From NCBI GenBank assembly GCA_947459635.1, contig CANHEA010000001.1, positions 1-64,000 of the forward strand: a stretch of 64,000 nucleotides of DNA. The letters run 5' to 3'. Below are positions 13,698 to 57,193 of the stretch, one piece after another. Under the pieces are notes generated by a model that worked only from the letters and a program-made list of their open reading frames with translations, had not been told where the DNA came from and did no database searches. Both the position numbers and the translations under genes were made by a program. The DNA comes from Flavobacteriaceae bacterium. Its GTDB lineage: Bacteria; Bacteroidota; Bacteroidia; Flavobacteriales; Flavobacteriaceae. The number at the start of each line of letters is the position of its first letter. Position 1 is the first letter of the stretch.

Positions 13698-13800
13698 GGG
13701 AGCTGCTTCCTGCTGTCCATTCTATCTTTTGTGCCTGTCAAGTTGCGTAAAATAAAACATAAAACTGGGCACAAAAGGATGCCATTACCATCAGGGCTAG
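13698..13800 (+). repeat. Dispersed structured repeat, copy D
   Basis: GGGAGCTGCTTCCTGCTGTCCATTCTATCTTTTGTGCC...GGGCACAAAAGGATGCCATTACCATCAGGGCTAG in the surE/prc divergent gap. Confidence 0.85.
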
Positions 13801-13973
13801 GCTTCGGTTTCCAATCCAAATTCAGTCAAATATTGCCGAAACGGGTTCAAATAATTCCCCGCAAAAATAAGCATTTTTAATAGGAAGTTCTTATTTTAGC
13901 ATCTTTAACAAAATATTAGCCTCGGAATAAAAGCGGCGCTTTACTTTTTGTGTAATTTAGACCTAAAAAATTA

Positions 13974-48555: not shown

Positions 48556-48595
48556 AATCTTAAAATCTTATAGTCTTGCTGTCTTACAGTCTAAT
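48556..48595. repeat. Micro-repeat tract, AATCTTAAAATCTTATAGTCTT family
   Basis: AATCTTAAAATCTTATAGTCTTGCTGTCTTACAGTCTAAT between DUF3098 and ftsX. Confidence 0.75.
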
Positions 48596-49466
48596 ACAAA
48601 TCGTCTGTTCTTAAATTCAAGTATTTTTGAGTCGCAAAAAAGGTGCTGACCCAAGTAATCAAAATCCCAACGGCGAGAACGCCTAACAATACAAGAACAA
48701 CCATCAATTGGTCTTCTAAAATATTCAGGCTCGGGAAACTATTGTCAATATAAATCAACGTTCCAATCAAAGCTATAATCGCCAACACAGCGCCAATCAC
48801 GCCCAATCGAATGCTTCTCCAAATAAACGGTTTTCGGATAAACGATTTCGTCGCGCCCACCATTTGCATGGTTTTGATGATAAATCGATTCGAATAAATC
48901 GACAAACGCATCGAGCTGTTAATCAACAACACCGCAATCAATGCCAAAATGCCGCTGATGATCAAAATCCACATGCTCACTTTCTTGATATTGTCATTCA
49001 CCAAATTCACCAATTGCTTGTCGTAGACTACGTCGGCAATCATGTCGTTGGCTAAAAATCGACTTTCAATCTTGCGAATATTTTCCGTGTCGATATAGTC
49101 TGCTTTCAAATGAATGTCGTAAGAATTCTGCAACGGATTCGCACCCAAAAAGGTCATGAAATCCTCGCCGATGATGTCCGTGTGCATCTTTGCCGCTTGT
49201 TCTTTCGTCACATAATCACTCGATTTGACGAATTTCGCAACTTTCAATTCCTGTCCAAATGCCGCCATCGTGCTGTCTGTCGCTTCGTTTTTGAAGAAAA
49301 CAGTCATCACAATTTCTTCTTTAAAATCGTCCGACAATTTCTTAGAATTAATCACGAAAAAGCCTAAAATACCCAAAAGGAAAAGTACCAAAAACATACT
49401 CAGTACCACAGAAAAATAAGAAGAAATAAGCCGACGCTTTTGAAATTTTTCGAAAGAAGAACTCAT
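48591..49466 (-). CDS. ftsX: Cell division protein FtsX
   Basis: 291 aa; FFVINSKKLSDDFKEEIVMTVFFKNEA; 4-TM permease; MQMVGATKSFIRKPFIWRSIRLG. Confidence 0.94.
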   Translation of the reverse strand: MSSSFEKFQKRRLISSYFSVVLSMFLVLFLLGILGFFVINSKKLSDDFKEEIVMTVFFKNEATDSTMAAFGQELKVAKFVKSSDYVTKEQAAKMHTDIIGEDFMTFLGANPLQNSYDIHLKADYIDTENIRKIESRFLANDMIADVVYDKQLVNLVNDNIKKVSMWILIISGILALIAVLLINSSMRLSIYSNRFIIKTMQMVGATKSFIRKPFIWRSIRLGVIGAVLAIIALIGTLIYIDNSFPSLNILEDQLMVVLVLLGVLAVGILITWVSTFFATQKYLNLRTDDLY

Positions 49467-49576
49467 AAATGTTAGTAATTATGGCGTAAAAATAATAAAG
49501 AAATTGTTTAATCATAGTTTATAACGAGCAAAGTTTTGACTTTCGTACAATAAACGTAAATTTGCCCTCAGTTTTT

Positions 49577-49710
49577 AGGAGCACTACAATTGTTTTCCTT
49601 AGAACAGTCGTCCCGCTTTCGCCTTTATCTTTTTTGTTTTTGTCACCCTGAGCGCAGTCGAAGGGCATTTTTATAAAAACAAAAAAAGATACCGGCTCTA
49701 TCGGGGCTAA
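49577..49710 (+). repeat. Dispersed structured repeat, copy B (contains a nested REP-like palindrome)
   Basis: AGGAGC...TCCCGCTTTCGCCTTTATCTTTTTTGTTTTTGT...ATAAAAACAAAAAAAGATACCGGCTCTATCGGGGCTAA. Confidence 0.8.
49646..49665. repeat. REP-like palindrome CCCTGAGCGCAGTCGAAGGG
   Basis: Imperfect 20-bp palindrome; second, related copy inside leuS at 50736-50753. Confidence 0.75.
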
Positions 49711-49774
49711 TTTTTGAACGTATTTTGCTACCATCAAGCAGCCAAGATTCGCCAACCAAACAACATCACATTCG

Positions 49775-49802
49775 CTTTGCGCCTCTGTGCCTTTGCGAGC
49801 AA
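49775..49802. repeat. Micro-repeat tract, CTTTGCGCCTCTGTGCCTTTGCG family
   Basis: CTTTGCGCCTCTGTGCCTTTGCGAGCAA; related tract at 52733-52759. Confidence 0.75.
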
Positions 49803-49816
49803 AAAATAAAAACAAA

Positions 49817-49852
49817 AACTCAGCAACTCAGTTTCTCAGCAACTCAGTCACT
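49817..49852. repeat. Micro-repeat tract, CTCAG family
   Basis: AACTCAGCAACTCAGTTTCTCAGCAACTCAGTCACT immediately upstream of leuS; same family as 35673-35710. Confidence 0.8.
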
Positions 49853-49857
49853 TCAAT

Positions 49858-52731
49858 ATGAAATACAATCCAAACCAAATAGAAGCCAAATGGCAAAAAT
49901 ACTGGGCCGACAACCAAACTTTCGCCGCCAGTAATACATCGGATAAGCCTAAATATTACGTATTAGACATGTTTCCTTATCCATCCGGAGCAGGTTTGCA
50001 TGTCGGACATCCGCTAGGTTATATCGCGTCCGATATTTATGCACGATTCAAACGCCACCAAGGTTTCAACGTGTTGCATCCGCAAGGCTACGACAGTTTC
50101 GGTTTGCCCGCAGAGCAATACGCCATCCAAACCGGACAACATCCAGATAAAACCACCAAAGAAAATATCGCGCGTTACCGAGAACAACTAGATAAAATTG
50201 GTTTTTCCTTCGATTGGAGTCGAGAAGTGCGAACGTCCAACGCTGATTATTACAAACACACCCAATGGATTTTCATTCAATTATTCAATTCCTGGTATAA
50301 CAAAACTTCAGATAAAGCCGAAGATATTTCGACACTAATCACCGAATTCGAACAAAACGGAAACGCCAACGTCAATGCAGTTTGCGACGACAACATTACA
50401 CCGTTTTCAGCATCAGATTGGAAAGCTCTTTCATCAGAACAACAACAAGAAATACTACTACAATACCGTTTAACTTATTTAGCGGAAACCGAAGTCAATT
50501 GGTGTCCAGCGCTCGGGACTGTGCTCGCCAACGATGAAATTGTCAATGGCGTTTCAGAACGCGGCGGACATCCAGTCATTCGTAAAAAAATGACCCAATG
50601 GAGCATGCGCATTTCCGCTTTTGCAGAACGTTTGTTGCAAGGTTTAGACACCATCGATTGGAGCGAAAGCATCAAAGAAAGCCAACGCAACTGGATTGGA
50701 AAATCCGTTGGAGCTATGGTGACTTTCAATGTCCTCCCGAGCGCAGTCGAGGGACAACCGACAACCGATAACCGACAACCGACAACCATAGAAGTTTTCA
50801 CCACGCGTCCCGATACCATCTTCGGAGTTACCTTTATGACACTCGCACCCGAACACGAATTGGTTGCTCAAATCACAACAGCCGACCAAAAAGAAGCCGT
50901 TGCAGCGTACATCGAAAAAACAGCCAAACGTTCCGAACGTGAACGAATGGCAGATGTCAAAACGATTTCTGGGGTTTTCACCGGAGCGTATGCCGAACAT
51001 CCATTTACTAAAGAACCGATCCCAGTTTGGATAGGCGATTACGTTTTGGCGGGTTACGGAACTGGTGCAGTGATGGCGGTTCCATGTGGCGACGAACGCG
51101 ATTATGCTTTTGCCAATTTCTTTAAAGGTGAAAATGGGATGTCAGACATCAAAAACATTTTTGCCAATGTCGATATATCACAGGAAGCTTATGGTTCGAA
51201 AGACAATGTAGAAATTGCCAATTCGGATTTCCTAAATGGACTCAATTATAAAGAAGCGACGAAAAAAGTGATCGTTGAACTAGAAAAAATAAACCAAGGC
51301 AAAGGCAAAACCAATTACCGTTTGCGCGACGCTGTGTTTTCGAGACAGCGGTATTGGGGCGAACCTTTCCCGGTATATTACATCAATGACTTGCCACAAA
51401 TGATCGATGCGAAACATTTGCCGATTGTGTTGCCGGAAGTCGAAAAATATTTGCCAACCGAAGATGGTCAACCGCCTTTAGGAAATGCAACAACTTGGGC
51501 TTGGGATGTAGAGAAGTTGTCGGTTGTGAGTTGTCAGTTGATAGATCATAAAACTGTTTTTCCTTTAGAACTCAACACCATGCCAGGTTGGGCAGGAAGT
51601 TCATGGTACTGGATGCGCTATATGGATGCACACAACGAAACCGAATTTGCAAGCCAAGCCGCATTAGATTATTGGCAAAACGTTGATTTGTATATAGGCG
51701 GAAGCGAACACGCAACCGGACATTTGTTGTACTCGCGTTTCTGGAACAAATTTCTTAAAGACAAAGGATTTGCTCCAACCGAAGAACCGTTTAAAAAGTT
51801 AATCAATCAGGGGATGATTTTGGGGATGAGTGCGTTTGTATATCGCAGCGAAGATTCCAAAAAGTTGTATTCAAAAGGAATGGTTCAAAGTGAGATTGTG
51901 CACCCAATCCACGTTGATTTAGCTGTGATCAATGATATGACTAATGAATTAGATATCGAAAAATTCAAATCACATCCATTATATTCTGATTATAAAGACG
52001 CCGAATTCATATTAGAAAATGGCAAATATAATGTTGGACGTGAAGTCGAAAAAATGTCAAAATCAAAATACAACGTGGTCAATCCGGATGACATTTGCAA
52101 CGAATACGGCGCCGATACTTTAAGATTATACGAAATGTTTCTCGGTCCGCTTGAGCAAGCCAAACCGTGGAATACTGCGGGAATTACTGGTGTATTCGGG
52201 TTCCTCAAAAAATTGTGGCGTTTGTATTTTGATGACAATGGTTTGATTGTGACGAACAACGAACCTTCTAAAGACAGTTTGAAAACACTACACAAAACGA
52301 TTAAGAAAGTAGGCGAGGACATCACCAACTTTTCTTTCAATACCTCGGTGAGTCAGTTTATGATTTGCGTCAATGAATTGTCGACGCAAAATTGTCATGA
52401 GCGTGCGATTCTCGAACCATTAGCGGCTTTGATTTCACCTTATGCACCTCATATCGCGGAAGAATTGTGGAGTCAATTAGGAAATTCAGGTTCGATTTCA
52501 ACCGTGGCTTTTCCAGAATTTGATGCCAAACAGCTGGTAGAAAGCAGCAAAGAATATCCAGTTTCTTTTAATGGGAAAATGCGATTTACATTGGAGTTGC
52601 CCCTCGATTTAACCGTGGCGCAAATTGAAGAAATTGTCATGAAAGACGAGCGCACCATCAAACAATTGGAAGGACGAACTCCGAACAAAGTGATTATTGT
52701 TCCCGGAAAGATTATCAATCTTGTAGGCTAA
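49858..52731 (+). CDS. leuS: Leucyl-tRNA synthetase
   Basis: MFPYPSGAGLHVGHPLGYIASDI; TTRPDTIFGVTFM; MSKSKYNVVNPDD; carries two repeat-derived in-frame segments. Confidence 0.97.
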   Translation: MKYNPNQIEAKWQKYWADNQTFAASNTSDKPKYYVLDMFPYPSGAGLHVGHPLGYIASDIYARFKRHQGFNVLHPQGYDSFGLPAEQYAIQTGQHPDKTTKENIARYREQLDKIGFSFDWSREVRTSNADYYKHTQWIFIQLFNSWYNKTSDKAEDISTLITEFEQNGNANVNAVCDDNITPFSASDWKALSSEQQQEILLQYRLTYLAETEVNWCPALGTVLANDEIVNGVSERGGHPVIRKKMTQWSMRISAFAERLLQGLDTIDWSESIKESQRNWIGKSVGAMVTFNVLPSAVEGQPTTDNRQPTTIEVFTTRPDTIFGVTFMTLAPEHELVAQITTADQKEAVAAYIEKTAKRSERERMADVKTISGVFTGAYAEHPFTKEPIPVWIGDYVLAGYGTGAVMAVPCGDERDYAFANFFKGENGMSDIKNIFANVDISQEAYGSKDNVEIANSDFLNGLNYKEATKKVIVELEKINQGKGKTNYRLRDAVFSRQRYWGEPFPVYYINDLPQMIDAKHLPIVLPEVEKYLPTEDGQPPLGNATTWAWDVEKLSVVSCQLIDHKTVFPLELNTMPGWAGSSWYWMRYMDAHNETEFASQAALDYWQNVDLYIGGSEHATGHLLYSRFWNKFLKDKGFAPTEEPFKKLINQGMILGMSAFVYRSEDSKKLYSKGMVQSEIVHPIHVDLAVINDMTNELDIEKFKSHPLYSDYKDAEFILENGKYNVGREVEKMSKSKYNVVNPDDICNEYGADTLRLYEMFLGPLEQAKPWNTAGITGVFGFLKKLWRLYFDDNGLIVTNNEPSKDSLKTLHKTIKKVGEDITNFSFNTSVSQFMICVNELSTQNCHERAILEPLAALISPYAPHIAEELWSQLGNSGSISTVAFPEFDAKQLVESSKEYPVSFNGKMRFTLELPLDLTVAQIEEIVMKDERTIKQLEGRTPNKVIIVPGKIINLVG
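50734..50788. repeat. Intragenic REP-like palindrome plus 7-bp x5 tandem tract within leuS
   Basis: CTCCCGAGCGCAGTCGAGGG followed by ACAACCG-ACAACCG-ATAACCG-ACAACCG-ACAACCA, read as LPSAVEGQPTTDNRQPTT. Confidence 0.85.
51515..51541. repeat. Intragenic micro-repeat tract within leuS, same family in inverse orientation
   Basis: AGTTGTCGGTTGTGAGTTGTCAGTTGA, read as KLSVVSCQL; near reverse complement of the ACAACCG tract. Confidence 0.7.
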
Positions 52732-52732
52732 T

Positions 52733-52759
52733 CTTTGTGTCTTCGTGTCTTTGTGGCAA
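52733..52759. repeat. Micro-repeat tract, CTTTGTGTCTTCGTGTCTTTGTGGC family
   Basis: CTTTGTGTCTTCGTGTCTTTGTGGCAA, immediately after the leuS stop codon. Confidence 0.75.
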
Positions 52760-54358: not shown

Positions 54359-54377
54359 TTTTGATTAGTCAGAAACC

Positions 54378-54457
54378 CTAGCCCTGATGGAAGCGGCATC
54401 CTTTTGCGACGTTTTTTGGCGCAAAAGATAAAGCGGACAGCAGGTTCCCGGCTCCTA
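54378..54457 (-). repeat. Dispersed structured repeat, copy C (inverted orientation)
   Basis: Reverse complement: TAGGAGCCGGGAACCTGCTGTCCGCTTTATCTTTTGCGCCAAAAAACGTCGCAAAAGGATGCCGCTTCCATCAGGGCTAGG. Confidence 0.85.
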
Positions 54458-57041: not shown

Positions 57042-57122
57042 TTAGGAGCTTCATCCCGTTTTCCGCTCTATCTTTTTCCGTTTAAAGAAACCGGAAAAAG
57101 GATGCCGCTGCAACCGGGGCTA
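57042..57122 (+). repeat. Dispersed structured repeat, copy A
   Basis: TTAGGAGCTTCATCCCGTTTTCCGCTCTATCTTTTTCCGTTTAAAGAAACCGGAAAAAGGATGCCGCTGCAACCGGGGCTAA. Confidence 0.88.
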
Positions 57123-57193
57123 AAAACAACACAATTTCTTTGACGTCTGATAGATAACAAATACTTTTACCATTTATTATAACAAACAAAATC

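Follow-up and report, generated by a model that had tools for sequence, protein, structure and literature searches.

A Flavo-1 element with a palindrome in its tip between ftsX and leuS of a Flavobacteriaceae bacterium

The cyanobacterial SDR/STRR systems comprise tiny mobile repeats nested in one another beside tandem tracts of 7–8 bases, and the palindromic elements of Rickettsia lie in frame within protein-coding genes. Flavo-1 (Rfam RF01705) was put forward as a structured RNA (PMC2864571). Its hits in F. psychrophilum fall in sense or antisense orientation indiscriminately, many of them outside transcribed regions and some overlapping such regions (PMC9723704). The CGTC/TGTC-tagged REPs form a super-family of short, high-copy palindromes with stems of 8–9 bp. 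REPs inside longer palindromes were described in A. variabilis, H. neapolitanus and T. roseum, and the spread of palindromes that lack a transposase was named as an open question (PMC3733652).

Here we describe the gap between ftsX and leuS in a 64-kb window, by which we mean the whole stretch of DNA analysed (64,000 nucleotides). The source genome is a draft assembly of 148 contigs with 85% completeness, its relatives are represented by one genome per species, and genome-wide counts rest on sequence searches and on a 464-kb sample of the source genome. The best explanation for the gap, to which we assign a probability of about 0.7, is that an old Flavo-1 DNA hairpin later received a palindrome in its tip, that the period-8 tracts (octads) are separate, and that the gap itself was not targeted.

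Layout of the ftsX–leuS gap

The divergent gap measures 391 bp and is flanked by ftsX (48591–49466, minus strand) and leuS (49858–52731, plus strand), as delimited by open reading frames and profile matches. On the ftsX side of the repeats, a block at 49476–49566 (plus strand) has a counterpart of 79–91% identity at the corresponding position of at least 12 congeners. This block contains a promoter-like TTTTG ... TAAATTTG on the plus strand, its box assigned by inspection to 49557–49564, which we take by resemblance to be a Bacteroidetes-type promoter for leuS. All modules listed for the gap by the sequence-only reading lie 3' of this block, presumably in the leuS leader, and all were recovered at the positions it gave: a structured repeat, the palindrome in its loop and two period-8 tracts. 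Another leader element, roughly GACTTGAGnnTGCGACAGCATGnCTCCATTAAAA, lies upstream of leuS in congeners (L011, L012, L013, L019 and L020), and an element of this kind is tandem in G019.

The structured repeat, termed copy B, belongs to Flavo-1. It matches RF01705 at 49605–49712 on the minus strand with 53.1 bits (E 1e-10; gathering threshold 42 bits), covering model positions 1–76. Alignment with other copies places the outer motifs AGGAGC ... ATCGGGGCTA of a long variant at 49577–49709 (minus strand; R1 57.5 bits). Its arms TTTTTTGTTTTT and AAAAACAAAAAA occupy 49630–49641 and 49675–49686, and the loop between them holds the palindrome CCCTGAGCGCAGTCGAAGGG (49646–49665), which together with its TGTC tag reads TGTCACCCTGAGCGCAGTCGAAGGG (49641–49665, plus strand).

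The first period-8 tract, CTTTGCGC CTCTGTGC CTTTGCGA GC (49775–49800, plus strand), had been read as a CTTTGCGCCTCTGTGCC tract. The second, the CTCAG tract CTCAGCAA CTCAGTTT CTCAGCAA CTCAGTCA CT (49819–49852, plus strand), ends 5 bp before the leuS ATG, and a further one, TCTTTGTG TCTTCGTG TCTTTGTG, is indeed present after the leuS stop, at 52730–52758 (plus strand). The window holds 10 period-8 tracts against 3.0 in shuffled sequence, and 4 period-7 tracts against 0.6. In the source genome, 3.7% of ORF starts have an octad in the 60 bp before them, and the rate after stops is similar. Several congeners, mostly from one clade, likewise have octads ahead of the leuS ATG, so this part of the arrangement did not arise recently in the source strain alone. 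The two octad tracts of the gap would belong to distinct families spread through the genome, whose tracts change by slippage and substitution and arise independently of both Flavo-1 and the palindrome.

Two further tracts had been proposed within leuS, and one of them holds as an insert. At 50730–50790 (plus strand; LeuS residues ~291–311), TGTC and a palindrome, TCCCGAGCGCAGTCGAGGGA, are followed in frame by GACAACC heptads, and the linker that holds this insert, which varies from one congener to the next, is ~12 residues longer than in the shortest congeners. The heptad-like stretch at 51523–51544 (plus strand) is no insertion, since LeuS has the same length there in nearly all congeners. 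The second leuS linker of G013 (L004) carries another in-frame insert, LCHAELDSASHNG in LeuS, whose DNA resembles a different TGTC palindrome. In-frame DUF559 (PF04480) nuclease-like domains are also found in leuS, in two copies, one of them at the same linker as the insert of the window. The DUF559 domain loci are L202 (G016:C58), L196, L198 and L200, and such domains also occur in frame in a methionine-synthase-like protein of two species and in a helicase-like protein, these hosts being named from their sequences. The domain borders read like translated palindromic repeats; our literature search on DUF559 returned nothing on in-frame inserts.

The concentration of modules had suggested a preferred target for insertion. 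Four modules do lie within 276 bp, and the sample contains a single comparable mixed cluster elsewhere (L155, 8937–9157). When the non-coding modules of the 464-kb sample were placed randomly in its non-coding DNA, however, clusters of at least three modules within 300 bp were as frequent as observed (2 observed, 2.2 expected; P = 0.68), so the gap is not special and the proposed preference fails. That the gap attracts repeats, with an open promoter or a cruciform as a conceivable cause, is therefore quite improbable in our judgement; the recurrence of octads before leuS would suit such attraction, yet the congeners concerned belong largely to one clade, and octads are about as common upstream of starts in general as after stops. 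The best explanation is that the modules meet here because the leader is among the few sites that tolerate them, and not through targeting.

Pairing and distribution of Flavo-1

Three other Flavo-1 copies lie in the window (13702–13802, 54376–54451 and 57048–57125), and the source genome contains at least 92. Our own model finds 26 in the 464-kb sample, sister elements counted, or about one per 18 kb. Most congeners have Flavo-1, in numbers from 0 to about 90, and it extends beyond its own family to three other families of the same order. In the closed genome G010, hits fall on both strands, and by eye, with no origin located, they follow no obvious replichore pattern. The sister element shares the inner stem and differs in its ends, GGGCGTG...GGGTCGGGCT / ATCCCTCACGC; examples are L090, L091, L100, L105 and L180, and in G010 L244–L246, L249, L252 and L254–L256. 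Three species have a long form of Flavo-1 in which an inner module around AAGAGCGACCnnAGGAAGCTCC is conserved (L240–L243 and L250 in G010, L142, and L184).

Of the cells given by 79 copies with 21 pairs each, 98.2% are paired, and covariation exceeds that of all controls. Changes in these copies are almost always two-sided (400 cells, against 8 one-sided), and G-U makes up 0.7% of the standard pairs. SRP RNA taken from related genomes within the order and handled in a similar way showed 9.0% G-U, with 70 double and 23 single changes. RNA helices use G-U intermediates, which DNA hairpins do not, and the near absence of G-U therefore points to Flavo-1 being a dispersed, strictly Watson-Crick DNA hairpin with a very variable tip, and not an RNA gene. 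Template-switch correction of quasi-palindromes, without transposition, could also yield Watson-Crick-only pairs; the constant internal mismatches of Flavo-1 speak against repair as the sole cause.

A functional RNA, as the Rfam entry implies and which would here be an antisense or leader RNA of leuS, could account for the strong covariation and for the F. psychrophilum hits that overlap transcribed regions. We regard it as improbable, because the pair changes avoid G-U to an extent that SRP RNA does not, because tips are freely swapped and copies appear and vanish between species, and because the F. psychrophilum hits show no preference for sense or antisense and are often placed outside transcribed regions (PMC9723704).

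Palindromes in the tip and order of events

The palindrome core GAGCGCAGTCGA has 41 exact copies in the genome, compared with none for the core read backwards. All 41 were classified: 30 lie in the tip of Flavo-1 or of the sister element, the latter contributing about a quarter of these, and 11 lie elsewhere. Two of these tips (L178 and L181) contain a palindrome within a palindrome. TGTC precedes most palindrome copies. In the 464-kb sample, which was chosen without bias, 7 of the 26 Flavo-1 or sister copies carry this palindrome, and other copies carry different ones. Tips of the 20 Flavo-1 copies read in G010 hold other modules, and this palindrome is absent from them. Flavo-1 tips seem to collect small palindromes genome-wide, and the evident target of the palindromes is the tip rather than the leuS gap. 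At four places (L079, L096, L104 and L177), a solitary palindrome is followed, directly or within ~40 bp, by an ACAACC-type heptad tract.

Orthologous sites give the order of events. Four species, including the source, have Flavo-1 in the ftsX–leuS gap, in one orientation throughout and with different tips: that of G001 lacks a palindrome, G014 has a short tip of its own, and G009 carries TGTCATTGCGAGTTTGCGAAGCAATC. The remaining congeners examined have no Flavo-1 in this gap, and the LeuS tree is compatible with either one old insertion or several for the four copies. Elsewhere, the L154 site has a 31-nt palindrome in the source genome (G000), and the element of G014 (L184), which matches it apart from the tip, has AAAGA instead; at the L106 site G023 has Flavo-1 in reversed orientation with TGTCATACTGAGCTTGTCGAAGTA in its tip. 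These comparisons place Flavo-1 first in the gap and indicate at least a few independent fillings of tips. They agree with the sequence-only reading that the palindrome entered after copy B; at the species level, with one genome each, the relatives do not share an identical arrangement. Several orthologous sites are without Flavo-1 in G001, G009 or G013, and by these alignments species differ through both gain and loss of Flavo-1. Neither a target duplication nor a clean boundary of Flavo-1 could be resolved at these sites.

Part of the 30 tip palindromes may nevertheless be copies of one composite and not separate insertions, since 22 of the 23 palindrome-bearing copies examined have a T6-type upper stem, which is a minority among palindrome-free copies. 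Taken further, a single entry into a T6-stem Flavo-1, followed by copying of the unit round the genome, would also fit the predominance of one orientation. We consider this rather unlikely, as the palindrome-bearing copies comprise seven outer-arm subtypes and their arms are scarcely more alike (0.733) than they are to those of palindrome-free copies (0.694). Palindromes also occupy the sister element, three Flavo-1 copies of opposite orientation and the interior of another palindrome, and the gap copies of G001 and G014 are free of them.

Tip insertion would suit an enzyme acting on single strands, and Y1_Tnp proteins occur in 24 of the 38 genomes searched. It is nonetheless very doubtful that RAYT or IS200-type tyrosine transposases move the palindromes or Flavo-1, as they do GTAG-tagged REPs. 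The 20 Y1_Tnp regions examined contain neither a palindrome of the family in the gap nor a Flavo-1 end (one region of G007 holds a different palindrome), the tag here is TGTC and not GTAG, and G004, G011, G012 and G016 have 12 to about 90 Flavo-1 copies without a Y1_Tnp match.

We return to the old hairpin with a later tip insertion. The gap would combine ordinary dispersed repeats, mosaic-like, in a tolerant 5' leader of leuS, with Flavo-1, spreading as a DNA hairpin, as its oldest module. The small TGTC-tagged palindrome would have entered the tip of this copy later, just as the same or other palindromes would have entered the tips of many other copies, and the insertion target was likely the hairpin tip as single-stranded or extruded DNA. 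A broader proposal, that Flavo-1, which ranks among the more abundant sRNA families of Rfam, is a mobile DNA hairpin whose single-stranded tip serves as a genome-wide landing site, where a putative single-strand-acting enzyme nests short TGTC-tagged palindromes, is one we advance tentatively and at less than even odds.

Comparison with known repeat families

The leuS gap itself is ordinary. If Flavo-1 is DNA, a Bacteroidetes-wide family annotated as sRNA would be wrongly classified and the hunt for what it does as an RNA misdirected, and the nested tips would offer natural pairs of empty and filled sites for studying how palindromes without a transposase spread. Copy B is a member of RF01705 (PMC2864571) by score and structure; that family is filed as RNA, whereas the pairing pattern and turnover described here fit a DNA hairpin, and the loop here holds a palindrome.

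The palindrome was also considered as a REP. As a GTAG-tagged REP with a RAYT it was rejected on its TGTC tag and on the 20 Y1_Tnp regions, none of which holds a copy. A strict search for TGTC- or CGTC-tagged 9-bp stems misses the palindrome of the gap, which lacks the 8–9-bp stem starting with A-T pairs and the 4–5-nt loop of the CGTC/TGTC-tagged super-family (PMC3733652) and is for this reason not assigned to it. It resembles that super-family in its TGTC tag, shortness and high copy number, and, as far as Y1_Tnp genes are concerned, in lacking a linked transposase. It differs in its stem of ~4 bp with G-A mismatches and in its host palindrome, which here is Flavo-1.

The nesting and the neighbouring tandem tracts recall cyanobacterial SDR/STRR, from which the phylum and the sequences differ. 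The leuS insert is likewise akin to the palindromic elements of Rickettsia in lying in frame within a protein-coding gene, and differs from them in being far shorter and joined to a heptad tract.
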